Positions 22,411-41,610 of a stretch of 60,226 nucleotides of DNA are shown here, in pieces. Origin of the DNA: Candidatus Methanomethylophilaceae archaeon (GTDB lineage: Archaea; Thermoplasmatota; Thermoplasmata; Methanomassiliicoccales; Methanomethylophilaceae); the NCBI GenBank assembly GCA_944321985.1, contig CALUNK010000002.1, forward strand, positions 1-60,226. The letters are read 5' to 3'. The notes beneath the pieces were generated by a model. It worked only from the letters and a program-made list of their open reading frames with translations, had not been told where the DNA came from and made no database searches. Every line of letters begins with the position of its first letter. The stretch's first letter is position 1. The translations under genes and the position numbers were made by a program.

Positions 22411-23820
22411 TCATCTGTGGAGCCCAGTCACCTCTCTGAAGCGGCAGCAGCAGGCTATTTCCATGTCGAGGATCTCTTCGATGTTGAGCTTGGCCTCGAT
22501 GCCGTAGGGTGCCCCTCCGATGGTCGTGACGGTGCCGAGGCCGTGCTCCTCACGGAACGTCCTCATGAAGCACTCGTCGTTGAGCTCGCTCTCCCCGATT
22601 CCAAGCTTGTCCATGACATACTTCTTGGAGTCGGCAATCTTGGTCTTCTTCCTCAGCTGAACCCTTCCGACGAGGTCGCCGGTTGTGCGGATGCCTCCGA
22701 GACCGGAGCTTGTGTAGTGGGTTACAAGACCCATGGGGTCTCCCACTCCAACCTACAAACCATCCACGTGAGCGATCTCGATCATGCACTTGTCCGCACG
22801 AGTGATGGCATCGATGGGAGGTGTCTCGCACATAGGTGTTCCTCCCACGCCCATGCCCATGTTGACCTGGAGTGGGATGTTGCTGACCTTGGAGCACTCT
22901 TTTACCATGCAGACGGCACGCGCGACGTTGTACGCTGTAGATTTGCTGGTGTTGGTGTTGACTACGGGTCCGAAGGCACTGACTCCAGCCATCTCGGCGA
23001 GCTTGACCTGCTGGTGGGGGTAGAGGCCAGCGGCGACTGTTCCCTTGTACTCCACCATTCCGTGGATTCCGAGAACGTTCTCGGCAGACATCCCCATCTG
23101 GATGTCGGCGTCGGGATAACTCTCGCGGAGCGTCTCTACGGCCCTCAAGGAAGCCACGAAGTCTAGGTCACCCGCGGAGGCGGTGGTGTCGAAGTCCATG
23201 CCGTCGATTCCGGTGGAGAGGATCTTCTCTCCGATGTATACGATGTCTTTGTACATTTCATCGGCGGCTTTCTCGCCTTCGGACATGGCCTTCTCAATCT
23301 TGAAATCCCTCATGAGATCAGGAGGATTGCCGTACATCCCGGTCGGCTGGTAGTAGAGGCCGAGGTTGGGCATGAACATATACAGCATGGGGATAACGGT
23401 GTTGGCCATTACATTTTGGCAATGGGCCATCTCGAGTCCGATGACGGGCTTGATTTGCTTCGTGCTCGGGTCGAAGTAGGCGATCTCAAAGGTGTCCATC
23501 CCGAGAGCACGCTCGTGGACCTGGATACCCTCCAAGCGGTTCAGCTCCAGGGCGGGGCTGCTGGACCCGTTGTCCATCAGGAGCTTTTGCTCCCCGCCGT
23601 CCTGGGTGAGGATGACTTCCTCGCCGGGCTCGACGGAGACCGTGCGACCCTTCTCGCACATGATGTCGACGATGCGGGTCATGTCGTCATCGGTGAGGGA
23701 CGGAACCTCCGCTGCATCCACAGCGGCATAGTTGCCCGCCTCGACCTCGGCGCGAATCTCTTCCCTGCTCATCCACACGCGGCTTCCGTCGCCCATGCGA
23801 GTCATGTGGTCCTTGGTCAT
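22411..23820 (-). CDS. mtbB: Dimethylamine:corrinoid methyltransferase with pyrrolysine
   Basis: A protein of 469 residues if the TAG at 22753-22755 is read as pyrrolysine (residue 356); without read-through the gene would be split in two. MtbB moves one methyl group from dimethylamine to the Co(I) corrinoid of MtbC, the first step of methanogenesis from dimethylamine. The context EIAHVDGL-Pyl-VGVGDPMG is the known MtbB active-site segment. Upstream blocks such as GMDFDTTASAGDLDF and MSAENVLGIHGMVEYKG also fit. The ATG overlaps the mtbC stop (ATGA), so the pair is translationally coupled. pyl genes are not in this window and must lie elsewhere. Confidence 0.95.
22753..22755 (-). other. In-frame amber codon read as pyrrolysine
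   Basis: TAG at codon 356 of mtbB. The reading frame stays open for 113 further codons after it, and the protein similarity to MtbB continues on both sides. The following stop is TGA at 22411. A gene finder with the standard code would report two fragments. Confidence 0.93.
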
Positions 23821-24470
23821 TGGACCACCCCGTCGGCGATGTCCTTGGCTTTCCTGGTGGTCTCGGAGGCGGACTCCCCGTAGACATCTGCACCGATTTT
23901 CTCGCAGTAGGCCTGGGTTATGGGGGCACCTCCGACCATGACGGTGCATCTTTCGCGGAGTCCGGCCTCCTTTAGCATCTCGATGATATCCTTCATAACT
24001 GTCATGGTAGTGGTCATCAGCGCGGACATACCACAGTAGCAGCAGCCGTCCTGCACTTCCCTGATGAACTCGGGCTTGGGGACGTCCCTTCCGAGGTCGT
24101 GGACCTCGAACCCAGCACACTGCAGCATTGTGGAGCATATCGATTTGCCAATGTCGTGGACATCTCCCTCGACGGTTCCCATGACGACTTTGCCCTTGGA
24201 AGCCCCCTCGTTTCCAGATGCCATGAGTTCTGGGCCGAGGATTTCCATGGCCTTCTTCATCCCGTTCGCGGCACTAAGCACATGGGGCAGGAAGAGCTTT
24301 CCTCTCTCGAAAAGGATCCCGACCTCCGACATGGAGTTCCCGAACTCGTCGATAATCTCGTTAGCACTCATGCCGGCTGCCTTTGCCGTGTTTACGGATT
24401 CAACGATGTCGGGAACCTTGCAAGATACCAGTGCGTCGTGTAGCAACTTCTGTTCGTTCTCGAACGACAT
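23817..24470 (-). CDS. mtbC: Dimethylamine corrinoid protein
   Basis: A 217-residue cobalamin-binding protein of the methanogen MtbC/MttC/MtmC group. The N-terminal helical cap domain covers about residues 1-90. The B12 domain begins with GTVEGDVHDIGKSICSTML, whose DxHxxG motif gives the lower-axial His. MTTTMTVMKDIIEML and VMVGGAPIT complete the Rossmann-like fold. It accepts a methyl group from MtbB and passes it to MtbA/coenzyme M. AGGAGG stands six bases ahead of the ATG. It is the first gene of the operon. Confidence 0.95.
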   Translation of the reverse strand: MSFENEQKLLHDALVSCKVPDIVESVNTAKAAGMSANEIIDEFGNSMSEVGILFERGKLFLPHVLSAANGMKKAMEILGPELMASGNEGASKGKVVMGTVEGDVHDIGKSICSTMLQCAGFEVHDLGRDVPKPEFIREVQDGCCYCGMSALMTTTMTVMKDIIEMLKEAGLRERCTVMVGGAPITQAYCEKIGADVYGESASETTRKAKDIADGVVQ

Positions 24471-26937: not shown

Positions 26938-27051
26938 TGGTCCCCACTCCCTGATTTGAACAGGGGACCTGCTGATTTCAGCGGCTGTATCGGATTTTCT
27001 TCCGAAAACACTCTACAGTCAGCCGCTCTGGCCAGTCTGAGCTAAGTGGGG
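26938..27051 (-). tRNA. tRNA-Tyr (GUA) with intron, CCA encoded
   Basis: The acceptor stem CCCCACT pairs with AGTGGGG, the discriminator is A, and CCA is encoded. The D-arm GCTC/GAGC and T-arm CCCTG-TTCAAAT-CAGGG are canonical. The anticodon stem GCTGA/TCAGC encloses CUGUAG, giving anticodon GUA at 27014-27016. The C1-G72 pair is the archaeal tRNA-Tyr identity element. An intron of about 36 bases (roughly 26977-27012) follows the anticodon; CTGT and ACAG can form the central helix, but the bulges are not textbook, so the exact splice points are open. An AT-rich TATA lies at about 27075-27088. Confidence 0.92.
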
Positions 27052-27222: not shown

Positions 27223-28125
27223 ATGATTCAGGGATTATATCTGGTGGACAGGAGGCACGAGAACGTCGATGAGGAGGTCAGGCTCTTCCGCCAGACCATG
27301 GGTGTCGACGTCAGACCGCTCAATTTCGAGGACGTGGTCCCGATCGTCGGTCCCGGGGACGAGGACGGAGTGCTTCTTACAAACGGAGAGAGGCTCCCAC
27401 GTCCGGACTTCGTGTTCACGAGGGCATTCAGGCTTTCAGAAACCGAGTCTTACCAACTGAAGGCGGTGCTGAGGATGATGGAGGGGATGGGGGTGCTTTG
27501 CATCAATCCCGCGGACTGCAAGGACATCACCTCCGACAAGCTGAGGACGTTCCAGATCGCCAGGAGGGTGATCCCTGAGATACCCATACCAAAAACCATG
27601 CTGATCGTTCCCGGAACGGAAGCCGGACAGGTTGCCGACTACATAGGCTATCCCGTGGTCCTCAAGGTCCTCCATGGAGAAGGAGGGGCCGGGGTGGTCC
27701 TGGTCGAATCGGAGGGTGAGCTCAAGAGGATGCTGTCGATGGTCTCGGCATGCAAACCAGGGGACCAGATCATAGCCCAGCAGGCGATCATGACGTCCAA
27801 GGGCAGGGACCTGCGCGTCATGGTCCTGGGTGACGGAGTCATGGGGTCACTCGTCAGGATAAACCCTGGGAACTTCACGTCAAACGTCCATCAGGGCGGA
27901 TACGCGGCGGCGTTCGACGCTCCTGAGAACATTAAGGAGGCCGCCGTCCGTCTTGCGAAGGCCATCGGCATCAAGATGGGCAGCGTGGACTTCCTGTTCG
28001 GCAAGAACGAGGGCGAGTTCTACCTGTGCGAGGCGAACTCGTCGATAGGGTTCAATTCCGTGCCGGGGGTCGATCAGAACCGCATGATGGAACTGGCGAC
28101 CGGCCTGCTGGGGGATTTGAGGTGA
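27223..28125 (+). CDS. RimK-like ATP-grasp ligase 1
   Basis: A 300-residue ATP-grasp enzyme of the RimK/LysX kind, which joins an acyl phosphate to an amine. The N-terminal domain ends in ESYQLKAVLRMMEGMGVLCI. The ATP-grasp core shows SDKLRTFQIARR, YPVVLKVLHGEGGAGVVLV (glycine-rich loop), IIAQQAIMTSKGRDLRVMVL, and the metal site GSVDFLFG to FYLCEANSSIGF. GAGGT six bases ahead supports the ATG at 27223. It is the first gene of an eight-gene operon and is paralogous to 29830-30762. The substrate is unknown; amino acid ligation to a carrier or peptide is the family norm. Confidence 0.82.
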   Translation: MIQGLYLVDRRHENVDEEVRLFRQTMGVDVRPLNFEDVVPIVGPGDEDGVLLTNGERLPRPDFVFTRAFRLSETESYQLKAVLRMMEGMGVLCINPADCKDITSDKLRTFQIARRVIPEIPIPKTMLIVPGTEAGQVADYIGYPVVLKVLHGEGGAGVVLVESEGELKRMLSMVSACKPGDQIIAQQAIMTSKGRDLRVMVLGDGVMGSLVRINPGNFTSNVHQGGYAAAFDAPENIKEAAVRLAKAIGIKMGSVDFLFGKNEGEFYLCEANSSIGFNSVPGVDQNRMMELATGLLGDLR

Positions 28126-29825
28126 GGCCATACCTGAAGGTGACGGGGGAACCGCGCGAGGCGGCAGCCTCCTGGGCTGCGATGTGTGCCGACTGCAGGG
28201 GCACCCAGGAAGCGACCCTCATGTCGATAGTGGAGGCAGCGGCGGATAGCGAATACGGGAGGGAACACGGTTTCCACGACATCCGCGATGTGGATGATTT
28301 CCGCAGGTCTGTGCCTGTCAACGATTACGCTGACTTCGAGGGCTACGTCGAACGCATGGCAGCCGGTGAACCCGATGTGCTGTTCGACGGTCCAACGGAG
28401 TACTTCATATCCACGTCCGGCACGACCGGGAAGTCCAAGCTGATCCCCGAGTCTGCGGCGGGAAGGGAGGCCAAGGAGGCCGTCAACAAGGTCAGGAACG
28501 CCGTCATGACGAGGGCGGTTTCAGGTGCGTTGTCCCGTTCTCCGGCAATCCTCGAGGCGCTGAGGTCCAAGGGCCTGGATCCGGTCACGGTGAAGCCGTC
28601 GGACCTGATAGGGGCCTTCCACTTCTACTCAGTGACCTCGGCAATAGCAGGCAGGAGGACCGAGGGAGGGATCGAGGTCGGATTCGCATCCGGGAAGACG
28701 TTCGACAGCTCCGAATACGGGGGGATGCTGGCATACCCCAAGGAGCTCATGGGTCTCGCCGATGGGGAGGCGACGATGTACCTCACGATGCTGTTCGCGC
28801 TGAGGTACGACGACATCGCCATAGTGACGTCCAACAACGCCGCCAGGCTCTATGCCAGGATCAGGTACGCCCAGGAGCACGCCGAGGACATCATAAACGA
28901 CATGCGTCACGGTACCGTACGGTCTGAGCTGAACCTTACAGACGAGGAGAGGCGTATGGCGGAGGGGTACATGACGCCGAATCCAGACCGGGCGGACAGG
29001 CTGCAGGAGATACTGGACTCTGGCAGGGAGAACTTCATCCCGCGTTTCTACTGGCCGTATCTGATGGCGGCAAGGTTCTGGCTGTCCGGATCGGTGGGGG
29101 TCAACGTACCACGCGTCAGGCCCCTCCTTCCCGAAGGCACCGTGTATTTCGACATAGGCTACGGGGCCAGCGAGGCCAAGATCAACATACCAGGGAGACC
29201 GGACGAGGGCAGCGGGACGCTGGCTACGTTCTCCGCATTCTACGAGTTCGTGCCGGTCGGAGGCGGGGACCCGCTCACGGCCGACATGTTGGAGGATGGT
29301 GGCCAGTACGAGCTTCTGGTCACAAACTACTCGGGGTTGTACCGTTACAACCTCAACGACATCGTGGCGGTTCGCGGATTCGACGGGGACACCCCCGTCA
29401 TAGAGTTCGTCACGAAGTCCAGGGAGATCCTGAACATAGCGCAGGAGAAGGTTCCGGCACCCGGGGTGCTGGACTGCGTAAACAAGATGGCGGACATGTA
29501 CGGGTTCTCCGTCCGTCAGGCCCAGGTCCGCGAGGATCCCGAATCACAGTCGTACGAGGTCTACGTGGAGCCCGAGTCGCCCATCGATGTTCCGGCGGGG
29601 GAGATGGCGGACGATCTCGACCGCATCCTGTCGGAGACGTTCGAGCTGTACGGGAGGAACCGCATGCTCGGGTCACTGAACAGGTTGAATGTGACAATCA
29701 TGAGGGACGGATGGCAGGAGAGCCTGTTCAGGGCACGTGAGGCCCAGGGCTCACCCAGGTCCCAGATAAAGCTGGATGCGAGGGCGATTGCGCCGCCCGA
29801 AGAGCGCTGGGTGCTTAGGAGATGA
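28122..29825 (+). CDS. GH3-family acyl-acid amide synthetase 1
   Basis: A 567-residue member of the GH3 branch of adenylate-forming enzymes, known in plants for joining amino acids to hormones. EYFISTSGTTGKSKLIPES is the ATP-binding P-loop-like motif. FDIGYGASEAKI matches the second ATP motif, and LVTNYSGLYRYNLNDIVAV is the highly conserved GH3 segment with the acid Asp. The start is a GTG at 28122 that overlaps the previous stop (GTGA), so expression is coupled to the ATP-grasp gene. It probably activates a carboxylic acid as its adenylate for amide formation within this operon's pathway. Confidence 0.85.
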   Translation: MRPYLKVTGEPREAAASWAAMCADCRGTQEATLMSIVEAAADSEYGREHGFHDIRDVDDFRRSVPVNDYADFEGYVERMAAGEPDVLFDGPTEYFISTSGTTGKSKLIPESAAGREAKEAVNKVRNAVMTRAVSGALSRSPAILEALRSKGLDPVTVKPSDLIGAFHFYSVTSAIAGRRTEGGIEVGFASGKTFDSSEYGGMLAYPKELMGLADGEATMYLTMLFALRYDDIAIVTSNNAARLYARIRYAQEHAEDIINDMRHGTVRSELNLTDEERRMAEGYMTPNPDRADRLQEILDSGRENFIPRFYWPYLMAARFWLSGSVGVNVPRVRPLLPEGTVYFDIGYGASEAKINIPGRPDEGSGTLATFSAFYEFVPVGGGDPLTADMLEDGGQYELLVTNYSGLYRYNLNDIVAVRGFDGDTPVIEFVTKSREILNIAQEKVPAPGVLDCVNKMADMYGFSVRQAQVREDPESQSYEVYVEPESPIDVPAGEMADDLDRILSETFELYGRNRMLGSLNRLNVTIMRDGWQESLFRAREAQGSPRSQIKLDARAIAPPEERWVLRR

Positions 29826-29829
29826 GACC

Positions 29830-30762
29830 ATGGGTAAACTGAAGGGTATGATGCTCATCGGCGATCACTCGGATTTCGAGAGGGAGTTCGCCGTGGCGAA
29901 GGGGCTTTTCACCGATGACTGGGTGGACATGAGCTACGTGTGCTTGGACGACGTGGAGGTCGTCGCAGTCGACTCGGTAGACGGCAAGGTCCGTGCTGCA
30001 GGCGAGACGTACGATCTTCCAGACTTCGTCTTGGTCATGACGGTCGAGGAGAGGTCGCAGTACCAGCTGAAGGCGGTGCTCCGTATGTTCGAGACCCTTG
30101 GTGTCGTGTGCGTGAACACGTACGACTCCATCGAGGCGGCGGGGGACAAGCTGTACTCGTTCCAGATCGCCAAGATGGCGGTTCCGGAGATCAGCATCCC
30201 GGACACGGTTCTGGTCACGGAGAGGACCGAGCCGGAGCGCCTGGCGGAGATGCTCGGTCTCCCCTTAGTGCTGAAGGTCATGCACGGGTTCCAGGGGCGC
30301 GGGGTCTGTCTGGTCAGGGACCTCCAGGAGCTGAAGTCGATGATAGGCATGCTCACGGCCGCCGAGTACGGGGACCAGGTGATAGCGCAGAAGGCGGTCA
30401 TGTCGTCCAAGGGCAGGGACCTGAGGGTCGTAGTGGCCGCAGGAGAGGTGGTGACGTCCTTCGTCAGGCACAACGAGAAGGATTTCAAGTCCAACCTGCA
30501 CCAGGGAGGCTCGATAGAACCGTTCTCCCTCCCCGAGGATCTGGCCGAGCGGTCCGTGAGGCTAGCCGAGGCCTTCGGTCTCAAGATGGGGAGCATAGAC
30601 TACCTGTTCGGTGAGAACGAGGGCGAATTCCTCCTGTGCGAGGTGAACTCCATCCCCGGGATATCGTATCTGTTCAGGGCACAGGCCCAGGGGGACGCGG
30701 CACTGGTGTCCAGGTTCATGGAGATGCCCAAGGCAATTCTGAGGAGGGAGGGGCTCCTATGA
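29830..30762 (+). CDS. RimK-like ATP-grasp ligase 2
   Basis: A 310-residue paralogue of the ligase at 27223. The same blocks are present: SQYQLKAVLRMFETLGVVCV, GDKLYSFQIAKMAVPEI, LPLVLKVMHGFQGRGVCLV, VIAQKAVMSSKGRDLRVVV, and GSIDYLFGENEGEFLLCEVN with the metal-binding Glu and Asn. The N-terminal preATP-grasp domain differs more, which suggests a different acceptor. It begins four bases after the GH3 stop. Two ligases in one operon imply at least two sequential amide bonds, or two alternative substrates. Confidence 0.82.
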   Translation: MGKLKGMMLIGDHSDFEREFAVAKGLFTDDWVDMSYVCLDDVEVVAVDSVDGKVRAAGETYDLPDFVLVMTVEERSQYQLKAVLRMFETLGVVCVNTYDSIEAAGDKLYSFQIAKMAVPEISIPDTVLVTERTEPERLAEMLGLPLVLKVMHGFQGRGVCLVRDLQELKSMIGMLTAAEYGDQVIAQKAVMSSKGRDLRVVVAAGEVVTSFVRHNEKDFKSNLHQGGSIEPFSLPEDLAERSVRLAEAFGLKMGSIDYLFGENEGEFLLCEVNSIPGISYLFRAQAQGDAALVSRFMEMPKAILRREGLL

Positions 30763-30786
30763 CATCCTCCGCGAGTCGGTGATGAA

Positions 30787-32514
30787 GTGAAGCTGTTTCT
30801 CAAGGACTACGTTCTCCCGTATTGGAAGCACATCCTGCTGCTGGCGATGTTCATCGTCCTGCAGGTGTTCCTGCAGATGCAGGTGCTCAACGAGACCCAC
30901 GCCGTCCTGAACTCCGGGGTGGCCGCCCAGGACATGGATTTCATCGCCGCCGCCGGGATCAAGATGCTGGCACTCACTCTGGTCTACGGATTGGCGATAG
31001 TCATCGTGTCGTATCTCAGTGCCTACCTCAGTGCCAGCGTCACCTGCGACGTCCGCAGGGACCTGTTCAAGCACATCATGTCCTTCTCGCAGAAGGACTT
31101 CTCGAGGTTCGGCGGCTCAACCCTGATGACCCGTCTGACCGCGGACACCACGCGCATCCAGATCTTTATGCTGAACGCGCTAAGGAACGCCCTACTCGTC
31201 CCAGTGGTGATCGTGGCAATCGTGATCGCGACAGCGATGATCAACGTCACCCTCTGTGCGATCCTGGTGGTCGCCTTCGCCGTGACAATAACATTCATGG
31301 TGGTCAGGAGTCGCCAGAGCATGCCGATGTTCAACGAGGTCCAGCAGGAGCTGGACACTCTCAACACCCTGGTCAAGGAGAAGGCCGAGGGCGCCCGCAC
31401 GATAAGGGCGTTCGGCAGGCAGAGGTATGAGACGGAGAGGTTCGCGGAGCTGAACGAGGAATACCGCATCGACTCCCAGAACGCTGCCCTGAAGATCTGC
31501 TACCTGACCCCGCTGGCTCTGATCATCATGAACCTGGCGGTTCTGCTGATCTACTACGTCGGATCGGTGGAGTTGCAGGAGCGCATCATAAGCATATCTG
31601 ACATGATCCTCTTCTTCCAGTACGTCACATACTTCATCAGCTGTCTCGCCATAGTTCCGTTCATAGTGACCACCCTTCCGAAGACGATCGTCTCCACAGC
31701 GAGGCTGGAGGAGGTCCTGTACTGCGAGCCATCGGTCACGAACGATCCAAAGGGCGTGATGCCGGAGGCGGAGGGCGATGCCGACATCGTCTTCGAGAAC
31801 GTGTCCTTCGGATACGAGGGCGCAGCCAAGGATGCAGTGTCCGATGTGACGGTGAGGATGGGACGCGGGAAGACGACCGCAATCATAGGCGCCACGGGCT
31901 CGGGCAAGAGCACACTGGTGCAGATGATCCCGAGGTTCTTCGACCCGAAGTCGGGCAGGGTGACCTTCCACGGGGCGGACCTCAGGGACCTGGATGTGGG
32001 CGATCTGAGGGACAGGGTCTCATACGCTAGCCAGAGGACGATGATCCTGGAGGACACCGTTTACGCGAATGTCTCGATGGGCTCGGGAGTCAGCCGTGAG
32101 CAGGCCGAGGAGGCCTGCAGGCTCACGATGTTCTCGGAGGCACTGGATGTGATGCCAGACGGCCTGGACACCGTCATGGCCCGCGGAGGGATGAACGTCT
32201 CCGGAGGACAGAAGCAGAGGCTCTCTCTGGCGCGGGCAATCTGCAAGGATGCGGACGTCTACGTCTTCGACGACTGCTTCTCAGCACTGGACGCCAAGAC
32301 GGAGAGGGCAGTGAGGGCGAACATCCGCGAGCGTCTCAAGGGGAAGACCGTCGTCATGGTCGCACAGAAGATCAACACCATCCGCGATGCCGACAGCATC
32401 GTGGTCATGGACAAGGGCCGGGTCGTGATGCAGGGCACCCACGACGAGCTCATGGAGTCGTGCCAGATCTACCGCGAGATATACGCGACGCAGTCGTACT
32501 CGGAGGGGGAGTGA
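30787..32514 (+). CDS. ABC exporter half, degenerate ATP site
   Basis: 575 residues: six membrane helices (about 1-310) and a nucleotide-binding domain. Walker A is GATGSGKST and the signature is NVSGGQKQRLSLARAI. Walker B ends YVFDDCFSALD, with Asp where the catalytic Glu is expected, and the switch reads VAQKINTI with Gln for His. Such losses mark the non-catalytic partner of heterodimeric exporters like BmrC or TM287. It starts with a GTG at 30787 preceded by GGTGAT. It pairs with the next gene, one base away, and presumably exports the product of the upstream ligases. Confidence 0.88.
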   Translation: MKLFLKDYVLPYWKHILLLAMFIVLQVFLQMQVLNETHAVLNSGVAAQDMDFIAAAGIKMLALTLVYGLAIVIVSYLSAYLSASVTCDVRRDLFKHIMSFSQKDFSRFGGSTLMTRLTADTTRIQIFMLNALRNALLVPVVIVAIVIATAMINVTLCAILVVAFAVTITFMVVRSRQSMPMFNEVQQELDTLNTLVKEKAEGARTIRAFGRQRYETERFAELNEEYRIDSQNAALKICYLTPLALIIMNLAVLLIYYVGSVELQERIISISDMILFFQYVTYFISCLAIVPFIVTTLPKTIVSTARLEEVLYCEPSVTNDPKGVMPEAEGDADIVFENVSFGYEGAAKDAVSDVTVRMGRGKTTAIIGATGSGKSTLVQMIPRFFDPKSGRVTFHGADLRDLDVGDLRDRVSYASQRTMILEDTVYANVSMGSGVSREQAEEACRLTMFSEALDVMPDGLDTVMARGGMNVSGGQKQRLSLARAICKDADVYVFDDCFSALDAKTERAVRANIRERLKGKTVVMVAQKINTIRDADSIVVMDKGRVVMQGTHDELMESCQIYREIYATQSYSEGE

Positions 32515-32515
32515 G

Positions 32516-34288
32516 ATGTCGGAGGAGAGATCTCGTTCGACATGGGCGGTCCTCAGGAGGCTCGGCGGCTACATCAGCAAGGACAAGTACCGCACGATCG
32601 CGTCGGTGGTCGCCCTCGTGGCCGGGAGCTTCGCGCTTGCGTTCGCACCCACTCTGGCGGGAGACGCCATAGACATGCTCACGGAGTACGTGTACTCGGG
32701 GTACCAGGGTCTGGACGCAGGGGCCTTCGTCGGTCTTCTGCTCGTCATCGCCGCGCTGTACGTGTTCGGCAACGGCGCCAACATGTTCTCCAGCAGGAAC
32801 ATGATCATCGTCTCCAGGAACGCGGCCCTGAAGATGAGGCGCAACCTCCACAACAAGCTCAACAGGGTGCCGATCAGCTACCTGGACACGCACTCCTCTG
32901 GGGACATATCGTCCCGTCTTACCAATGACCTGACGACGGCGGAGTCGCTCCTGGAGAGCGACCTCCTGAACCTCGTAGTGCAGATCCTGCTGATCGTCCT
33001 GATACTGATAATGATGCTGCTGGTCAATCCGCTGCTGGCGGTGATATACATCATCCTGATGCCGGTGTCGTTCCTCCTGATAAGGTTCATAACCTCCAAG
33101 ACGAAGCGCGGGTTCAAGCTCCAGCAGAGTACGGTCGGGGAGCTCAACGGGTACATGGGGGACATCCTGAGCAATCACACCCTCGTCAAGTCCTACAACA
33201 TGGAGGGGGTGTCGGAGGAGAGGTTCGAGGAGATCAACCGCAGGTTCCACAGGGCGTACGTGAAGTCCAAGTTCGCGTCCGGGTTCATCATGCCCATGAC
33301 CCTGATGGTCAACAACATCGGGTACATCTGTGTCTCCATATTCGGTGCGTACATGATAATAGACGGGAGCCTGACTCTCGGAGGGTTCACCGCCTTCCTT
33401 CTGTACGGGCAGATGCTCAGCAGCCCGTTGCAGTCGGCGTCCTCGTCCATGAACCAGGTGCAGTCCGGGTTCGCCGCGGTGGAGAGGCTGTTCGACATCC
33501 TCGACGCGGAAGAGGAGCCGGACGAGAGCGGCCTGGCCAGGCTGGACGTGTCCGGGGTCCGCGGCGAAGTGTCCTTCGACGACGTCACCTTCGGGTACAC
33601 GCCTGACAGGATGCTGTTCCAGCACGTGTCGTTCGATGTGGAGCCCGGGACGGTCACTGCGATCGTCGGCCCCTCGGGTGCGGGGAAGACCACGGTCATC
33701 AACCTGCTTATGAGGTTCTACGAGATCAACGGCGGGAAGATCCATGTCGATGGGGAGGACACCCGTGCCATCAATCGCGACGAGCTCAGGAGGGCGTTCG
33801 GGATGGTCCTGCAGGACTCGTGGGTCTTCGATGGGACGGTGGCCGACAACATAGCCTACGGCAAGGAGGGCGCGACCCGCGAGGACGTGGTCCGCGCCGC
33901 GGAGGCCGTCGGATGCGACTCGTTCATCGATGTCATGCCGGACGGGTACGACACATACATCAGCGAGGAGAATTCACAGCTCTCCGTGGGGGAGAAGCAG
34001 CTGCTGGTCCTGGCCAGGGCCGTGCTCGCGGACCCCAGGATTCTGATACTGGACGAGGCCACGTCCAACATGGACACCAGGACGGAGGCTCTGGTCACGC
34101 GCGCGATGGAGAGGATGATGGAAGGGAGGACGACGTTCATCATCGCCCACAGGCTCTTCACCATTCGCAACGCGGACAAAATCATCTTCATGAAGGACGG
34201 AGACATAAAGGAGGTCGGCTCTCACGAGGAGCTGATGGCCCTTGACGGACTCTATGCCGAGATGTACCGCAGCATGTCCTCGACTTGA
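32516..34288 (+). CDS. ABC exporter half, canonical ATP site
   Basis: 590 residues with six membrane helices and a complete nucleotide-binding domain: Walker A GPSGAGKTT, signature LSVGEKQLLVLARAV, Walker B ILILDEATSNMD with the catalytic Glu, and switch IIAHRLFTI. It is the catalytic partner of the preceding half-exporter. HSSGDISSRLTNDLTTAESL and the helix that follows are the usual type IV exporter coupling features. The STAS gene follows after 30 bases in the same orientation. Confidence 0.9.
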   Translation: MSEERSRSTWAVLRRLGGYISKDKYRTIASVVALVAGSFALAFAPTLAGDAIDMLTEYVYSGYQGLDAGAFVGLLLVIAALYVFGNGANMFSSRNMIIVSRNAALKMRRNLHNKLNRVPISYLDTHSSGDISSRLTNDLTTAESLLESDLLNLVVQILLIVLILIMMLLVNPLLAVIYIILMPVSFLLIRFITSKTKRGFKLQQSTVGELNGYMGDILSNHTLVKSYNMEGVSEERFEEINRRFHRAYVKSKFASGFIMPMTLMVNNIGYICVSIFGAYMIIDGSLTLGGFTAFLLYGQMLSSPLQSASSSMNQVQSGFAAVERLFDILDAEEEPDESGLARLDVSGVRGEVSFDDVTFGYTPDRMLFQHVSFDVEPGTVTAIVGPSGAGKTTVINLLMRFYEINGGKIHVDGEDTRAINRDELRRAFGMVLQDSWVFDGTVADNIAYGKEGATREDVVRAAEAVGCDSFIDVMPDGYDTYISEENSQLSVGEKQLLVLARAVLADPRILILDEATSNMDTRTEALVTRAMERMMEGRTTFIIAHRLFTIRNADKIIFMKDGDIKEVGSHEELMALDGLYAEMYRSMSST

Positions 34289-34318
34289 GATTAAACCGAT
34301 TTGGAAGGAGGGAAAACT

Positions 34319-34615
34319 ATGGAGATAAAGGATACCGAAGAGGAAGGAAAGACCGTCGTGTACTTGTCCGGAAGGTTGGATACCAAGACCGCCCCCGAGT
34401 TGGAAGCCCACATCAAGGCAGGAGGCATCGGCGACAACGGGCTCATACTGGACCTGTCCGACCTCGAGTACGTGTCCAGCGCAGGTCTGAGGGTCATACT
34501 GGCCACCCACAAGATGATGGTCAACCGCGGCGGGTTTATTTTGAGGAACGCCCAGGACACGGTCATGGAGGTTCTCAACGCCACCGGGTTCGCTGACGTC
34601 CTCAACATCCAGTGA
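34319..34615 (+). CDS. STAS-domain anti-sigma-antagonist-like protein 1
   Basis: A 98-residue protein made only of a STAS domain, like RsbV or SpoIIAA. VVYLSGRLDTKTAPELEAHI is the family start. LDLSDLEYVSSAGLRVIL carries the conserved Ser pair at about residues 58-59, one of which is phosphorylated by RsbW-type kinases. AAGGAGGGAAAACT precedes the ATG. It sits between the exporter and the second GH3 gene, with the kinase as the last gene of the operon, so it should be the switch partner of 36320-36748. Confidence 0.9.
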   Translation: MEIKDTEEEGKTVVYLSGRLDTKTAPELEAHIKAGGIGDNGLILDLSDLEYVSSAGLRVILATHKMMVNRGGFILRNAQDTVMEVLNATGFADVLNIQ

Positions 34616-34625
34616 GGTGCTCGGC

Positions 34626-36323
34626 ATGGACGTATCAAAGCTCTCGCCCATGGGTCAGTTCAACATGAAGCTGTATTCGGAGGGAAAGGTCGCTTACGCC
34701 CATTTCATGGAGATGACCAAGGACCCGATGAAGTACAACACCGAGCTCCTCATGAGAATCCTGCAGGACAACAAGGACACGGAGTACGGGAGGAAGTACG
34801 GGTTCGCCGACATCTACAGCATCGAGGAGTATCAGGCGAAGGTCCCGATAACGATGTTCGACGACTATGCCGGGTACATCTACAAGATGACCGAGGAGGG
34901 AGCCACCGGTCTGATCACATCCTACAGGGTGGAGCACTATGCAAAGTCCTCGGGGACCATGGGGAACCCCAAGAGGATCCCCGTCACTGACAGGGCGATG
35001 GAGGTGCTGGATAGGTACAACCAGCAGGTCCGTCTCGCAATACTGTGCGACGGCTTGGGGTTCGGATGGATAGAGTCGCCTGCGATCAACCTGATAGAGG
35101 CCCCGATGACCAAGCTGAAGTGCGGAGCCACATACGGGGCGATCTCCGGGAGGATGGTCCTGTCCCTGGGGGAGTACCTTCCGTTCTTCATGACGTCTCC
35201 GAGTGAGGCCCTGGTCCCGGACATAAGGACGAACACCAGGTACCTGCACGCCAGATTCGCTCTGGCGAGCAAGACCGTGACGATGGCCGCCTGCAGTTAC
35301 ATCAGCCTCATCCTGGAGATGATGCAGTACATCGAGAGGGACTGGGAGATGCTGGTATACGACATCGAGCACGGGACCATCGACGAGAGTGTGAAGATGC
35401 CGCCGGAGGTGAGGCAGTCCATCCTCGGCAAGATAAGGCCCATGCCCGAGAGGGCGGCGGAGCTGAGGGGGATCTTCGAGGAGGGCTTCGGGCCCACGGT
35501 CATGAAGAGGATCTGGCCCGACCTGCAGGTCTTCTACGGCATATCCACAGGAGGGTTCGCGGACTACCTCAGGAGGCTGAGGGAGAAGTACGCAGGTGAC
35601 GACATACCCGCGATGTACGTCGGAGTCACCGCTTCAGAGGGTCTTTTTACCACCCCGTACGAGATAGACAACAACCAGACGGTGCTGATCCCAGACAGCA
35701 TGTTCTATGAGTTCTGGCCAGTGGACTCCGACGATCCCGCCGACATCGTCACCATGGACAATCTGGAGGTCGGAAGGGTCTACGAGATCGTCTGCACCAA
35801 CCTCTCCGGGTTCTATCGCTACCGCATGAGGGATGCGCTCAAGGTCGTGGGGATGCTCAACAACACCCCGCTCATGGACTTCCAGTACAGGATCGACCAA
35901 TCCCTGAACATGACGGGAGAGAAGACCACCGAGGTGGCGCTGAGGGCCGCCCTGGAGAAGATGGGCGAGGGAATCGGAGTCGAAGTGGTGGATTTCTCCG
36001 TGTATGCGGACACCGACAGCGATCCGATGAGGTACGTCTACCTGATGGAGTTGGACGGCATGCCCGAAGGGCTGACAATGGACAGGATGGAGGAGGTCCT
36101 GGATGCCTGCCTCCGCGAGGCCAACCCTGTCTACGGGTACAAGGTAGAGAAGGGTCTGCTGGGGAGGTTGACCATAAAGCTGCTTCAGCCCGAGACCTAT
36201 CTGCTGTACAGGGACCTGATGATATCCAAGGGTGCGGCATCAGCCCAGCTAAAGCCCCCGCACATACTGACGAGCGAGTTGCAGAAGAGGTTCTTCCTGG
36301 CTCTTCTGGAAGAGGGGCAATGA
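34626..36323 (+). CDS. GH3-family acyl-acid amide synthetase 2
   Basis: A 565-residue second GH3 enzyme, clearly divergent from the first. HYAKSSGTMGNPKRIPV is the first ATP motif, YVGVTASEGLFTTPY the second, and VCTNLSGFYRYRMRDALKVV the conserved adenylation segment. TEVALRAALEKM belongs to the mobile C-terminal domain. GAGGTG precedes the ATG at 34626. The kinase gene overlaps its end by four bases (ATGA). Two different GH3 enzymes suggest two acids are activated, or an acid is activated and then extended. Confidence 0.85.
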   Translation: MDVSKLSPMGQFNMKLYSEGKVAYAHFMEMTKDPMKYNTELLMRILQDNKDTEYGRKYGFADIYSIEEYQAKVPITMFDDYAGYIYKMTEEGATGLITSYRVEHYAKSSGTMGNPKRIPVTDRAMEVLDRYNQQVRLAILCDGLGFGWIESPAINLIEAPMTKLKCGATYGAISGRMVLSLGEYLPFFMTSPSEALVPDIRTNTRYLHARFALASKTVTMAACSYISLILEMMQYIERDWEMLVYDIEHGTIDESVKMPPEVRQSILGKIRPMPERAAELRGIFEEGFGPTVMKRIWPDLQVFYGISTGGFADYLRRLREKYAGDDIPAMYVGVTASEGLFTTPYEIDNNQTVLIPDSMFYEFWPVDSDDPADIVTMDNLEVGRVYEIVCTNLSGFYRYRMRDALKVVGMLNNTPLMDFQYRIDQSLNMTGEKTTEVALRAALEKMGEGIGVEVVDFSVYADTDSDPMRYVYLMELDGMPEGLTMDRMEEVLDACLREANPVYGYKVEKGLLGRLTIKLLQPETYLLYRDLMISKGAASAQLKPPHILTSELQKRFFLALLEEGQ

Positions 36324-36748
36324 CCCGAAGGATCGAGGTAAACTCCACGGCGGACGCCCTCGACGATGTCATGGCGTTCGTCGACGGTTCCCTGAAGGGG
36401 ATGGACGCGTCAAGGAAGTCTGTACTGCAGCTGGAGCTGGCTGTGGAGGAGATATTCGTCAACATCGCCAATTACGCGTACCATACGGAGGGCGGCAAGG
36501 TCTGGATATCCTGCGATGTGGACGCCGAGGACAGGTCAGTCGCGATAACGTTCATGGACACGGGACCCGAGTTCGACCCGCTCGCGGCTCCGGATCCGGA
36601 TGTCACCCTCCCTGCCGATCAGAGGAGGATCGGCGGGTTGGGGATATTCCTTGTGAAGACGAATGTGGACAACATGAGCTACAAGCGTATCGACGGGTAC
36701 AATGTCCTCACGATCGAGAAGAACCTTGCCCGATATACTCAACGATGA
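36320..36748 (+). CDS. RsbW-like HATPase serine kinase 1
   Basis: A 142-residue GHKL ATPase of the anti-sigma factor kind. The N-box is LELAVEEIFVNIANYAY, the G1 box is FMDTGPEFDPL and the G2 box is RIGGLGIFLVKTNVD. There is no membrane segment. It overlaps GH3-2 by four bases, so it belongs to the same operon as STAS protein 1, its probable phosphorylation target. Its 3' end overlaps the convergent phosphatase gene by 41 bases. With no sigma factors in archaea, its bound target must be something else. Confidence 0.9.
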   Translation: MTRRIEVNSTADALDDVMAFVDGSLKGMDASRKSVLQLELAVEEIFVNIANYAYHTEGGKVWISCDVDAEDRSVAITFMDTGPEFDPLAAPDPDVTLPADQRRIGGLGIFLVKTNVDNMSYKRIDGYNVLTIEKNLARYTQR

Positions 36749-38678
36749 ACAGCGTGACGTCGTCGAACTGTTCGGCGTCGCCGGTGAAGGCGATGACGTC
36801 TTCGACGATGGATGAAACCTCTTCGCTGATGCTCTTCCCAGCGTCTGCGGTCGCCTTCTCGGCCAGTCTTCCCTCTCCGTAGAACCCATGGTAATCGCTG
36901 TTGGCCTCAGTCACCCCATCGGTGTAGAGCACCAACCTGTCTCCCGGGTGCAGCTCGGTCGTCTCCCTTCTGTACTTAACGCCGTCCATCCCTCCCAGGG
37001 CCATGCACGGGCGTGTGCGCAGGAACTCCACCTCGCCCTCCGTTCTGACGACCAGCGGGGCGCCGTGGCCGGCGTTACAGAACTCCATCCGGCCGGTGAC
37101 GGTGTCGATTATCCCGAACCAGCATGTGACGAACATGCTCTCGTCGTTGTTGCGGCAGATGTCCGTGTTCACCCTGCTCAGGACCTCTTCCGGGCCGGAT
37201 CCGGGGCGGGCGCACTCCTCCAGGAGTGCCTTCGTCACCGCCATGAACATCGCGGCGGGCACACCCTTGCCGGAGACGTCCGCCACAACCACGGCGAGAT
37301 GACTGTCATCGATCATGAAGAAGTCGTAAAGGTCCCCTCCAACGTACTTGGCGGGGATCATTGCCCCGTGCAGGTTGACTCCTTTCCCAGACACTCTGTC
37401 GAAGTCCCTGGGGATGAGGGAGGTCTGAATCGTGGCGGCGACAGACATTTCGGCGAGGTACATCTGCTCTCTGTTGTTCAGGTTGCGGATGTCCTCGGTG
37501 TAGGCCTCGATGTCCCGGGTCATGTCGGTCAGCGACCTGGCCAGTACCCCTATCTCGGAGTCGTAATCGGTGTATCTGCCGTACTCCTCCAGGGTCTCCT
37601 TGCTGCTCATGGTCTGGTGGCTCCCGTCCACGAAGTTGCGTGCGGCCTCGGAGATGCCTCCCAGGGGGTTCGATATGCGTGTCTCGACGTACTTCAGGAA
37701 CAGCAGGGCTATCATGAAGAACGCCAGGGATGTGGCGCCCATGTAGAAGACCGTTGACAGTCTCCTTCCATGGTCGAACAGGTCAGAAAGGACCCCGTTG
37801 TATGCCGCATAGCCGGAGATCAGGCTGAACCCCAGTCCGATCACCACGAATATGACGATTATGCGCTCGATCAGACTGCCGTTGAACGTGTACTTCCCGA
37901 TATGCTGCCTGGAGTCGTCGGCCGCCATGGCGGTGATGGGCTTCAGAAGGACGATGAACATCAGGGCGTAGGTCACGGCCGTCAGCGGATAGAGGATGGC
38001 GGACTGCGGATAGGTGACGAGAATCGCGGGAGCCAGAACAACGGCCACGAAGAGCGTAAGGTCGAACGCCCATCCGGGCACGGAGTCCCTGGAATCGTGC
38101 TTCTTGAAGTGGTCGTGTGGCACGTAGAACGCGATGCCCATGTACCTGAATATGACGATGAGTCCCATTCCGAATATGATCGAGAACGATATCACGCTCA
38201 TCAGTATGACCAGGTCGTCATAGGCCAGCTCGAATGTGCCGTAGAGCATCCCGTATGTGAGGTTGTACAGGACGGTGTAGACCACTGATGATGCTACCAT
38301 TATCGCCATGAACTTGGCGACGTCGCGAACCGTGGTAAGTGACGGCGGGGACGAGGTGTCGCATCCGAGACTTGTGCTGTACCACATCCTGTAGGGGAAG
38401 TAGGCTATCGTGAACACGGTCACAAGGTCGAGCGCACAGAATTCCGGCGGTACATCGTTGATGACGTTGGTGATAAGACTCACTATGTTCACGCCGAGGC
38501 AAGCAAAGGGTCCGAAAACCAGCCCCAGGACGATGCTGACTGCCAGATGCGGCCTCAGGTCCACGGGTAGCGACTCGGCCACGACCGTGACCGCAGCTGA
38601 TATCACCATAGCGGTGAGGATGATCCTCAGTCCGCGCTGAAGGTACGCCCTTCTGTCGAACGCCGTCGTCGTCTCCAT
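36708..38678 (-). CDS. Membrane SpoIIE-type PP2C phosphatase 1
   Basis: A 656-residue sensor phosphatase. Eight hydrophobic helices fill about residues 1-340. A HAMP-like linker and coiled coil follow (ISNPLGGISEAARNF, SLTDMTRDIEAYTEDIRNL). The SpoIIE/RsbU catalytic domain has VVADVSGKGVPAAMFMAVT, NAGHGAPLVV, LVLYTDGVTEA and DDVTLFIVEY, with all metal Asp residues. It should dephosphorylate a STAS protein in response to a signal sensed in the membrane. The start at 38678 is an ATG without a strong ribosome site. STAS protein 2 lies directly upstream in the same unit. Confidence 0.88.
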   Translation of the reverse strand: METTTAFDRRAYLQRGLRIILTAMVISAAVTVVAESLPVDLRPHLAVSIVLGLVFGPFACLGVNIVSLITNVINDVPPEFCALDLVTVFTIAYFPYRMWYSTSLGCDTSSPPSLTTVRDVAKFMAIMVASSVVYTVLYNLTYGMLYGTFELAYDDLVILMSVISFSIIFGMGLIVIFRYMGIAFYVPHDHFKKHDSRDSVPGWAFDLTLFVAVVLAPAILVTYPQSAILYPLTAVTYALMFIVLLKPITAMAADDSRQHIGKYTFNGSLIERIIVIFVVIGLGFSLISGYAAYNGVLSDLFDHGRRLSTVFYMGATSLAFFMIALLFLKYVETRISNPLGGISEAARNFVDGSHQTMSSKETLEEYGRYTDYDSEIGVLARSLTDMTRDIEAYTEDIRNLNNREQMYLAEMSVAATIQTSLIPRDFDRVSGKGVNLHGAMIPAKYVGGDLYDFFMIDDSHLAVVVADVSGKGVPAAMFMAVTKALLEECARPGSGPEEVLSRVNTDICRNNDESMFVTCWFGIIDTVTGRMEFCNAGHGAPLVVRTEGEVEFLRTRPCMALGGMDGVKYRRETTELHPGDRLVLYTDGVTEANSDYHGFYGEGRLAEKATADAGKSISEEVSSIVEDVIAFTGDAEQFDDVTLFIVEYIGQGSSRS

Positions 38679-38719
38679 TGCAGATGCGGAGTGAGTCGAC
38701 GATAATAAGAGTCGCGGTC

Positions 38720-39040
38720 TCAGATGAACTCGCTGAATCCAGACATGTCCAGGACGTCCTTGACGGAATCCTTGGCGTTGATCACGGTCAGTTTGTTCCC
38801 CTTGCCGACTGCCTTGTCCAGAGTCAGAATCGCCCTTAGTCCGGCGCTTGAGAGGTATGTGACCATCTCCAGGTCGAGTGTCGTGTTCCTGCCCCTGCAC
38901 TTGGGCAGCGCCTCGGACTGGAAATCGTTGGAGGACACAGAGTCCAGCCTGCCGCTGAGTTTGATGACGATGGTACCATCGTCGCTCTCCGCATAGGTTG
39001 CCGTAAGCGTGTCGTCCTTCGACTTCTTCTTACCGAACAC
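38720..39040 (-). CDS. STAS-domain anti-sigma-antagonist-like protein 2
   Basis: A STAS protein of about 106 residues. IVIKLSGRLDSVSSNDFQSE is the first half. DLEMVTYLSSAGLRAIL has the phosphorylatable Ser pair, and VLDMSGFSEF is the usual end. The N-terminus has a short basic FGKKKSKDD. No ATG fits: a GTG at 39040 is the likely start, with another GTG nine bases earlier as alternative. It precedes phosphatase 1 by 41 bases and is divergent from kinase 2, with about 190 bp of shared promoter region. Confidence 0.82.
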   Translation of the reverse strand: MFGKKKSKDDTLTATYAESDDGTIVIKLSGRLDSVSSNDFQSEALPKCRGRNTTLDLEMVTYLSSAGLRAILTLDKAVGKGNKLTVINAKDSVKDVLDMSGFSEFI

Positions 39041-39231
39041 ATCGACCACATCCTCTGTGTGTGGTATAACGCCTTGTTTCGTATTTAGTATTATTATTAG
39101 GTATCTGGCACAAACGTCTGATTCCAGCACGGTCCGTGTACGTCGGAATATCGTATCCACCACTCGACACAGTTTAATATGGTGCTCACAGATTCAATCC
39201 CCATGTGCGGCGACGCGGAGGTGGCGGTCGT

Positions 39232-39645
39232 ATGAAAACCATCACCGTTCCGTCCGACAAGGGCAGGCTGTACGACGTGCAGGAGTTTGTCAAGGACTGC
39301 CTATCGGGATGCGGGGCTTCCGAGAAGACGATCCAGCAGTTGGAACTTATTGTAGAGGAGATATTCGTCAACATCGTCAGCTATGCGTACAATCATCCGT
39401 CCGAGGGGGACATCAGCATATCCTGTTCCGTGGAGGAGCACCTCATGAGGGTCACTCTGACGTTCACGGATGCCGGTCCGGAGTTCGACCCCTTGTCGAT
39501 CGAGGATCCCGATGTCAAGATGAAGATGGAGGACCGTTCCGTAGGCGGTTTGGGGTTATTCCTGGTCAAGAAGAACGTTGACGGCATCACGTATAGGCGT
39601 GACAACGGGAGGAACGTCCTCCTTATCGAGAAGAGACTCTCCTGA
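39232..39645 (+). CDS. RsbW-like HATPase serine kinase 2
   Basis: A 137-residue GHKL kinase paralogous to 36320-36748. The N-box is LELIVEEIFVNIVSYAYN, G1 is FTDAGPEFDPL and G2 is SVGGLGLFLVKKNVD. GGAGGTG stands before the ATG at 39232. It is divergent from STAS protein 2 and converges on phosphatase 2, whose coding region it overlaps by 90 bases at the 3' end, an unusually long overlap. Each kinase is thus physically paired with one phosphatase. Confidence 0.9.
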   Translation: MKTITVPSDKGRLYDVQEFVKDCLSGCGASEKTIQQLELIVEEIFVNIVSYAYNHPSEGDISISCSVEEHLMRVTLTFTDAGPEFDPLSIEDPDVKMKMEDRSVGGLGLFLVKKNVDGITYRRDNGRNVLLIEKRLS

Positions 39646-41610
39646 CTTGGGCACACCGTCGTACCTGAGCAATAACATCGTTATGTCGTCGAACTGCGTG
39701 GCATGCCTGGTGAACTCGGCGATGTCGTCCGTCACCATCCTGATCTGATCGTTCAGTTGGGCTTCGGCGCTCCTGTCCATGACAGCCATGAGTCTCTCGA
39801 TGCCGTAGAATCCGTTGAAGTGGTCGTTGGCCTCAGTGACGCCGTCGGTGTACAGGAGAATCCTGTCGCCCGGCTCCATCGTAAGTTCTGCGGTCCTGTA
39901 TTTCACGCCTTCCCTGGCTCCTAGTATCAGGGACCTTGGTCCGACCATCAGCTCAGGTTTCTGGCCGACGCGTGCGATGATAGGGGGATTGTGGCCCGCG
40001 TTGCAGTAGGTGAGCTTGCCTGTGGTTAGTTCGAGGATCCCTATCCACGAGGTGACGAACATGTTCTGTTCGTTGTTCCTGCAAAGACCGATGTTGACCT
40101 TGCTGAAGATCTCGTCGGGAGAGAATCCAGGGCGGGACTGTCCCTCGATCAGGTACTTTGTGACCGCCATGAACAGTGCTGCAGGAACTCCCTTCCCGGA
40201 CACGTCGCCTATGGAGATGGCGAGATGGTCGGTGTCGATCATGAAGAAGTCGTAGAAGTCGCCTCCCACATACTTCGCTGCGTCCATGACGGCAGCGATG
40301 GATGCCCCCGAGCCGTCGACGACGGAGAAGTTCGTGGGTACGAAGGATTCCTGGATGCTCTTGGCGACGTTGAGCTCTGCCCTGTACATCTCCTGTTGGC
40401 TGTTCAGCTTTCTCAGATCCTCGACGTATTCCTCCATGTCGCTGGTCATCTTCGTCAGGGACCTGGCGAGTTCGCCGATTTCTGAGTCATCGTTGACGAG
40501 GTCTCTGCAGCTGTACTCGAACTCCTCGCTGGAGAACTCGTGGTCGTTGCTGATGAAGTTCCTGGATGCCTCGGACAGTTCTCCTATCGGATCGGTGATG
40601 TACTTCTCAAGATACCACAGGAAGACCAGGGCCGGAACGAAGAACACCAGGAGTCCAGTGCTCATGTAGAACAGGACCGTGACGTCGTATCCCCATCCGA
40701 ACACATCGTCCAGTATTCCCATGGATGCTGCCGCGCCGAATACGAGGCAGATCATCAAGCCGTACAGGATGAAGATGACGATCATGCGTTCGATCAGGCT
40801 CCTGTTGAACTTGTTGATCTCCAACCCTTTGATCCTCACTGTGAGCTCGTCCATCCTAGCGGATTCTATCGGTTTTAGCAGGAAGGCGAAGAGCATCACG
40901 TAGGTCAGCAGGGCCATCGCGGGTATTGCGGGGCCCTTGGGGGACAGGTTGAGAACGAGCAGTGGCAGCAGTATTCCAAGGCCGAGTATCAAATCGTAGA
41001 ACCTGGGGTCGACAGTGCGCCTGAAGTCATCCGGCGTCCCGCCGAACTTCGGGCTGTAGAACCTTATGCCAAGGTATCTGAGGAGGAGGATCGCGGCCAG
41101 TCCGAACAGGAACGAGAACGAAAGCACGTTGATGAAGCGAACTATGTCTTCGAAGTTCAGGACGAACTGCCCGTCCATGAGGCCGTATGTGATGTTGTAC
41201 AGCACTGTGTAGACGAGGCTGGAGACTATCATCATCACGATGAACTTCGCGATGTTGCGGACCGAGTCCAGAACCGGGGGGCGGTCATCCCTGTCCATGC
41301 CCACGCTGTACCAGAGCCTGTAGGGTATGTACGAGGTCAGGAAAACGGTGAAGAAGTCCAAACAGCAGAACTGTATCGGAACCCCAGTTACCACGTTGTT
41401 CACGAAGTTCACCAGGTTCACACCCAAGGATGCGAACGGGCCGAAAAGGAGTCCTATTACGGGACACAGTGCCAGGTTCGGCATTATGTTGACGGGTAAC
41501 TGGTCGCTGATGCTAGTGATGATCTGGGTGATTATGGCGGCGCCTATGAACAGAATGATTTCGCGGTTGCCAACGAAATCCTTGACGCGCTTGCCATTCA
41601 AAAGCTTCAC
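39556..41610 (-). CDS. Membrane SpoIIE-type PP2C phosphatase 2
   Basis: A 684-residue paralogue of 36708-38678 with the same architecture. Multiple N-terminal helices include NIMPNLALCPVIGLLFGPFA. A HAMP-like segment follows (ITDPIGELSEASRNFISND), and the catalytic domain has IGDVSGKGVPAALFMAVTK, CNAGHNPPII, RILLYTDGVTEAND and DDITMLLLRYDG. The last 30 residues are a variable tail that is read antisense to kinase 2. It should reset a STAS protein after membrane signalling. It is a single-gene unit with about 60 bp to the next gene. Confidence 0.88.
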   Translation of the reverse strand: MKLLNGKRVKDFVGNREIILFIGAAIITQIITSISDQLPVNIMPNLALCPVIGLLFGPFASLGVNLVNFVNNVVTGVPIQFCCLDFFTVFLTSYIPYRLWYSVGMDRDDRPPVLDSVRNIAKFIVMMIVSSLVYTVLYNITYGLMDGQFVLNFEDIVRFINVLSFSFLFGLAAILLLRYLGIRFYSPKFGGTPDDFRRTVDPRFYDLILGLGILLPLLVLNLSPKGPAIPAMALLTYVMLFAFLLKPIESARMDELTVRIKGLEINKFNRSLIERMIVIFILYGLMICLVFGAAASMGILDDVFGWGYDVTVLFYMSTGLLVFFVPALVFLWYLEKYITDPIGELSEASRNFISNDHEFSSEEFEYSCRDLVNDDSEIGELARSLTKMTSDMEEYVEDLRKLNSQQEMYRAELNVAKSIQESFVPTNFSVVDGSGASIAAVMDAAKYVGGDFYDFFMIDTDHLAISIGDVSGKGVPAALFMAVTKYLIEGQSRPGFSPDEIFSKVNIGLCRNNEQNMFVTSWIGILELTTGKLTYCNAGHNPPIIARVGQKPELMVGPRSLILGAREGVKYRTAELTMEPGDRILLYTDGVTEANDHFNGFYGIERLMAVMDRSAEAQLNDQIRMVTDDIAEFTRHATQFDDITMLLLRYDGVPKSGESLLDKEDVPPVVTPIRDAVNVLLDQE

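Follow-up and report, generated by a model that had tools for sequence, protein, structure and literature searches.

The window that we analysed (60,226 nucleotides) corresponds to contig C2 of an archaeal MAG with a total size of 1.78 Mb (genome G000, 86% complete). All eight genes that an earlier note had read in this DNA are present in the order given there (ATP-grasp 1, GH3-1, ATP-grasp 2, ABC-A, ABC-B, STAS, GH3-2 and RsbW), all on the forward strand between positions 27223 and 36748, and each domain is found by Pfam (Table 1). The genes are also as tightly packed as described: the junctions measure -4 bp (ATP-grasp 1/GH3-1), +4 (GH3-1/ATP-grasp 2), +24 (ATP-grasp 2/ABC-A), +1 (ABC-A/ABC-B), +30 (ABC-B/STAS), +1 (STAS/GH3-2) and -4 bp (GH3-2/RsbW), giving a maximum gap of 30 bp and two overlaps of 4 bp. 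The start of ATP-grasp 1 at 27223 (MIQGLYLV) agrees with those of its orthologues (MLRGIYLV, MVKGIYLV). For GH3-1, the GTG at 28122 is most likely the start codon, which creates the 4-bp overlap with the stop of ATP-grasp 1 (GTGA); the same overlap is found in the orthologues of three species.

The operon is flanked by an intron-containing tRNA-Tyr, which is overlooked by the default tRNA scan and was found once introns were allowed. It gives a single match per genome in eight of the nine genomes searched. At the other end, the SpoIIE-type phosphatase SpoIIE 1 is convergent with gene 8. SpoIIE 1 and a second STAS/RsbW/SpoIIE set (38720-41610) lie outside the interval covered by the earlier note, yet they are part of the story.

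Table 1 Features of the operon and of the adjoining switch locus in the window
Feature	Position	Strand	Evidence and remarks
tRNA-Tyr (GTA), intron-containing	26938..27051	-	ARAGORN, introns allowed; landmark of the operon insertion site
Gene 1: RimK-like ATP-grasp ligase 1	27223..28125	+	Pfam RimK E 2.5e-28; NCBIfam rimK_fam above cut-off
Gene 2: GH3-1, acyl-acid amido synthetase family	28122..29825	+	Pfam GH3 6.8e-61; motifs STSGTTGKSK, GASE, YRYNLND
Gene 3: RimK-like ATP-grasp ligase 2	29830..30762	+	Pfam RimK 1.4e-27
Gene 4: ABC exporter half A (ABC-A), degenerate catalytic site	30787..32514	+	Walker B FDD, H-loop Q
Gene 5: ABC exporter half B (ABC-B)	32516..34288	+	Walker B LDE and H-loop His intact; signature LSVGE non-canonical
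Gene 6: STAS, phosphoacceptor Ser conserved (YVSSAGLR)	34319..34615	+	Pfam STAS 1.3e-14; NCBIfam ant_ant_sig above cut-off; alignment
Gene 7: GH3-2	34617..36323	+	Pfam GH3, GH3_M, GH3_C; motifs SSGTMGNPK, TASE, YRYRMRD
Gene 8: RsbW-like HATPase kinase	36320..36748	+	Pfam HATPase_c_2 2.1e-20
SpoIIE-type PP2C phosphatase 1 (SpoIIE 1), N-terminal membrane region	36708..38696	-	Pfam SpoIIE 1.9e-53; start codon approximate
STAS2, genus-wide switch locus	38720..39163	-	Orthologues in G076, G098, G100; start codon approximate
RsbW2 kinase, genus-wide switch locus	39232..39645	+	
SpoIIE phosphatase 2 (SpoIIE 2), genus-wide switch locus	39556..41610	-	Pfam SpoIIE 1.2e-50; 82% identity in G076

Both GH3 proteins score above the Pfam GH3 cut-off and retain the three nucleotide-binding motifs (SSGT/STSGTTG, ASE and YRYxxxD) with intact active-site residues, which places them in the family with a predicted activity. 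The AlphaFold model of GH3-1 (pLDDT 71) adopts the fold of plant-type GH3 amido synthetases (best Foldseek E 4e-29). For GH3-2, the resemblance to plant GH3 is seen at the sequence level (phmmer 2e-45). Fold and motifs are shared with the plant and bacterial enzymes JAR1, GH3.5, GH3.12 and OlsH. Unlike these, the operon GH3s, which are about 20-25% identical to them, are archaeal, paired and found alongside ATP-grasp and ABC genes.

The two ATP-grasp ligases score 147.7 and 146.7 bits against the RimK family model TIGR00768 (cut-off 143.4), and their active-site residues are intact: the E-x-N metal ligands are present and conserved, as is the FxSNxHQGG motif. The equivalog cut-offs for RimK, LysX, MptN and CofF are all missed (64-108 bits compared to 275-350); the match to these enzymes is at the level of the family. 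The operon ligases form a subfamily of their own, which is confined to the four genomes carrying the operon at an identity of at least 42%; the next relatives outside it are found at E ~1e-30 or weaker.

The ABC halves bear out the heterodimeric exporter proposed in the earlier note. In all four species ABC-A has FDD and AQK while ABC-B has LDE, AHR and LSVGE, motifs that predict a heterodimeric type IV exporter with one degenerate and one intact ATP site. This asymmetry is the pattern of TM287/288-type heterodimeric exporters, and TM288 is among the matches of our exporter search.

Among the 147 genomes of the order, most of those compared being MAGs and some of them fragmented, six carry GH3 (PF03321) above the cut-off. 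Four of these six (G000, G074, G098 and G100, all of one genus) have the seven genes from ATP-grasp 1 to GH3-2 in identical order. The operon proteins are 57-82% identical to their counterparts in the other three genomes (57-61% for ATP-grasp 1), with dN/dS of about 0.08-0.21 between G098 and G100 and 0.16-0.45 between G000 and G074. This recurring order under purifying selection demonstrates that the seven-gene operon is a real unit and not a product of chance. Synteny in relatives was among the checks named in the earlier note; the order is kept in four species and its loss was not found.

The location of the operon differs between these species. In G000 and G074 it stands between tRNA-Tyr and the switch locus. 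The seven-gene operon of G098 and G100 is at another site, beside genes reading as HMG-CoA reductase and PheT, and in these two genomes tRNA-Tyr is followed directly by STAS2 and the SpoIIE/RsbW locus, as is also the case in G076, which lacks the operon. The presence of the operon at two unrelated chromosomal sites indicates that it travels as a unit and that RsbW belongs with the switch locus. RsbW and SpoIIE adjoin the operon in G000 (two RsbW/SpoIIE sets) and in G074 (one set at that site, without STAS2) and are found at other positions in G098 and G100. RsbW (gene 8) is therefore outside the conserved core of the operon and belongs to the switch locus that is found next to tRNA-Tyr across the genus. 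Thus the switch described earlier as encoded within the operon is there in part: each of the four species has STAS in the core, and RsbW adjoins the operon in two.

The GC3 of the operon (0.77-0.89) is that of the neighbouring genes (0.77-0.90), with no compositional sign of recent foreign DNA. Inspection of the neighbouring genes revealed no tRNA-targeting integrase; the operon is on the 5′ side of tRNA-Tyr. We found no close relatives of the operon among viral contigs, and the sole match in one scan of genome contigs is a UBA71 MAG. Two further families of the phylum (L050 and L051) have weak or partial GH3 matches, whose neighbourhoods contain none of the remaining operon parts.

The switch proteins have conserved catalytic residues: the phosphoacceptor region of STAS (SSAGLR in the operon proteins), the N and G boxes of HATPase and the Asp residues of the PP2C metal site. 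Foldseek matches the phosphatase domain of SpoIIE 2 to structures of RsbU, RssB, SiaA and SpoIIE; the matches to the AlphaFold model (overall pTM 0.48) are restricted to this domain, the sensor region being without a match. Accordingly, the locus has all three protein types and the catalytic residues in common with RsbU/RsbV/RsbW, SpoIIE/SpoIIAA/SpoIIAB, SiaABC and Hsb. It differs from these bacterial partner switches by its archaeal host and by switch genes that are found beside enzymes and exporters and, in relatives, fused to a MATE exporter. Partner switches are textbook regulators of sigma factors, which to our knowledge are not expected in archaea. The SpoIIE tree was left out of the fine orthology because it has G100 on a very long branch, probably due to an imprecise start.

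The gene content of G074 (99% complete) suggests which proteins work together. This genome has just two STAS genes, one in the operon and one in a LuxC cluster that supplies kinase and phosphatase domains itself. This leaves the operon STAS of G074, by elimination, as the likely partner of the adjacent RsbW/SpoIIE.

Next to other SpoIIE loci we also found biosynthetic clusters. In a census of 37 genomes of the order, such loci fall with five cluster types. The first is an NRPS of C-A-T-reductase architecture with the switch, found in 14 genomes (in some of which short contigs leave only the synthetase end visible) and often with a phosphopantetheinyl transferase. The second combines LuxE, LuxC/AMP-binding and a MATE exporter fused to HATPase (6 genomes); switch genes accompany all six strong LuxC fusions. 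Reciprocal searches with LuxC and NRPS were used for counts only. The third has NHLM-type ABC pairs in G077 and G088, one of them with a radical SAM/SPASM gene, and G078 probably carries such a switch-linked cluster as well. The fourth, GH3-STAS-MATE::HATPase-SpoIIE::HATPase, is found in G043 and, over two contigs, in G042; its GH3s are relatives of GH3-2 from another genus, and its fusions indicate that exporter and switch are physically tied. The GH3/ATP-grasp-ABC operon of the window is the fifth. Fusion of a MATE exporter to a kinase domain thereby occurs in two cluster types.

Within the family, a biosynthesis/export cluster adjoins around 24 of the 32 inspected SpoIIE loci (P ~2e-27 at an assumed, generous background of 4% and with genomes treated as unrelated). 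Since the genomes are related, the five distinct cluster types are a safer measure than this P value.

Taken with the operon itself, this linkage leads us to think it rather probable that in this Methanomassiliicoccales archaeon the operon serves to make and export a small molecule under the control of a sigma-independent partner switch. Our inferred scheme of catalysis, transport and switching, including which way the switch acts and on what, would run as follows. Going by their family, the GH3 enzymes would adenylate a carboxylic acid and pass the acyl group to an amine, usually an amino acid, and the two RimK-like ATP-grasp ligases would attach more amino acids, activating a carboxylate as its acyl phosphate. 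ABC-A and ABC-B would form one exporter that pumps out the amide conjugate. STAS would be the on/off element, phosphorylated on its conserved Ser by the RsbW-like kinase and stripped of this phosphate by the membrane-anchored SpoIIE phosphatase upon its signal. Dephosphorylated STAS may then bind the synthesis/export machinery directly, or it may free a factor held by the kinase.

The earlier note had likewise read the operon as one of amide synthesis and secretion. The intact GH3 and ATP-grasp active sites, the ABC asymmetry and the synteny all agree with this, while the product and its secretion are what we infer from them. Some observations count against a switched biosynthesis-and-export operon: the GH3-1 gene of G074 contains an in-frame TAG; the exporter is of a generic type IV (MsbA/TM287-288-like) and could carry other cargo; and in G098 and G100, where RsbW and SpoIIE are apart from the operon, kinase and STAS would have to pair without adjacency.

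The same enzymes might instead make and flip an amino-lipid: the GH3s would join a fatty or isoprenoid acid to the amino group of an amino acid, the ATP-grasps extend the headgroup, the MsbA-like pair flip the product to the outer leaflet and the switch tune membrane composition. We give this a fairly low chance. Lyso-ornithine lipid is the product of a bacterial GH3-like enzyme, OlsH (PMC12493201), and MsbA-type models give the highest scores for both ABC halves. The two GH3s match the OlsH model NF052613 weakly (57 and 73 bits) and fall far under its curated cut-off of 620, which leaves them outside that group. Moreover, the operon is without an acyltransferase gene, and its patchy spread over four species is more in keeping with a dispensable product than with a membrane lipid.

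It is also conceivable, if improbable, that STAS and the neighbouring kinase and phosphatase are functionally separate from the operon, which would merely have been inserted by an older switch locus at tRNA-Tyr. The STAS2 switch locus is indeed at tRNA-Tyr without the operon there in G076, G098 and G100. Nonetheless, all four species, even the two with the operon elsewhere, have STAS inside the conserved core, flanked by ABC-B and GH3-2, and the linkage of STAS, HATPase and SpoIIE recurs in several other cluster types.

Graspetides typically have RimK-like ATP-grasp pairs and ABC exporters. That this combination makes and exports such an omega-ester peptide here is very improbable, even though in a related genus member a radical SAM enzyme and an NHLM-type peptide exporter are linked to the switch: the MvdC and MvdD models score 38 and 24 bits (cut-offs 425 and 475), no conserved small ORF was found upstream of the operon in the four species, the gaps within it are too short for a precursor gene, GH3 enzymes have no known graspetide role and Pfam finds no C39 peptidase domain in the ABC halves.

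For a biosynthesis-and-export operon under a partner switch, the nearest precedent is found in another gut methanogen. The NRPS clusters of Methanobrevibacter ruminantium M1 carry a serine phosphatase, an anti-sigma-factor antagonist and MatE (PMC2812497): mru0066-0071 and mru0512-0516, reported in 2010, combine an amide-forming synthetase, MatE, STAS and a SpoIIE-type phosphatase (PMC2812497). Synthetase, exporter, STAS and SpoIIE are in one neighbourhood in the window and in G074, SpoIIE being non-adjacent in G098 and G100. In contrast to the NRPS and MATE of M. ruminantium, the operon has two GH3s, two ATP-grasp ligases and a heterodimeric ABC exporter and no NRPS; an NRPS condensation domain has no match anywhere in G000 (86% complete).

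According to the earlier note, no archaeal pathway of such composition had been described. For the chemistry this stands: our literature searches found no archaeal pathway with GH3 acyl acid amido synthetases or with GH3 and ATP-grasp, and no paper combining GH3, ATP-grasp and a biosynthetic cluster. The layout of synthetase, exporter and partner switch, on the other hand, recurs across the order and was reported for the M. ruminantium NRPS clusters (PMC2812497). Within the literature searched, the GH3/ATP-grasp chemistry and the recurrence of the switch across chemistries look new, and the switch-linked archaeal biosynthesis/export cluster is already known. The GH3s found on plasmids are only ~23-29% identical. 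Of the two inspected, one is in a Bacteroides housekeeping context and the other in a Streptomyces polyketide cluster; the latter, beside a polyketide synthase, indicates that GH3 within natural-product clusters is already known.

More tentatively, partner switching in gut methanogens of the family may be a general post-translational on/off control of secreted small molecules, spanning several unrelated chemistries (NRPS, LuxC/LuxE reductases, NHLM-exported peptides, GH3-MATE and GH3/ATP-grasp-ABC), with synthesis/export proteins rather than a sigma factor as the target, and the GH3/ATP-grasp operon may lead to a new archaeal amide class. Gut archaea have so far yielded very few known small-molecule pathways, and the operon offers one with clear enzymes, two GH3s and two ATP-grasp ligases. 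Switch proteins beside clusters of differing chemistry provide a search handle for further archaeal metabolites, and kinase domains fused to exporters make a partner-switch target without a sigma factor directly testable. Outside the family, four switch loci adjoin a large protein, which is a metallo-beta-lactamase in the two tested.

The MATE::HATPase fusions found in three loci from related genomes physically join exporter and partner switch in a direct way. Within the order, the switch genes adjoin several kinds of cluster (see table). For the synthetase of one NRPS locus (L056), the top-scoring model was the aureusimine synthetase AusA, at 653 bits, below the cut-off of 2500. One of the two loci with an NHLM-type exporter (L064) additionally carries a radical SAM/SPASM gene, and this locus has the look of an archaeal RiPP cluster. 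The LuxE/LuxC clusters possibly encode an aldehyde-forming pathway. In other families of the order (L066 and L069), a metallo-beta-lactamase-fold protein replaces the biosynthetic cluster as switch neighbour.

Features in the window and in loci from related genomes (L numbers, own coordinates)
Feature	Position	Strand	Remark
Membrane-protein gene, 596 aa	3454-5244	-	neighbouring genes
Membrane-protein gene, 595 aa	5357-7144	-
Probable pyrrolysine methyltransferase gene	22411-24470	-	TAG-interrupted; Rfam PYLIS_2 at 22659-22755
tRNA-Tyr(GTA), 38-base intron	26938-27051	-	overlooked in default tRNA scan
MATE exporter fused to RsbW-like HATPase domain	L021:3917-5653; L053:10131-11855; L054:14693-16402
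NRPS with terminal thioester reductase, adjoining SpoIIE::HATPase and STAS	L056, L061, L062, L073, L077, L081, L083, L084
NHLM-type peptide exporter pair adjoining STAS and SpoIIE::HATPase	L064:5248-11529; L057:5653-12001
LuxE and LuxC::AMP-binding domain fusion with partner switch	L053:4735-10131; L052:3123-9953		gut methanogens
SpoIIE-HATPase-STAS genes beside large metallo-beta-lactamase-fold protein	L066:5626-7251; L069:9812-11593

GH3-1 of the same-genus relative G074 contains a single in-frame TAG (L018:9522-9527) where its orthologues have Glu. Because this lineage reads TAG as pyrrolysine, it may be a Pyl codon; it may also be a mutation or an assembly error. In the window, a corrinoid-type protein gene adjoins the putative pyrrolysine methyltransferase gene. 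Finally, the two membrane proteins have near-identical N-termini, and their genes are apparently a tandem duplication.
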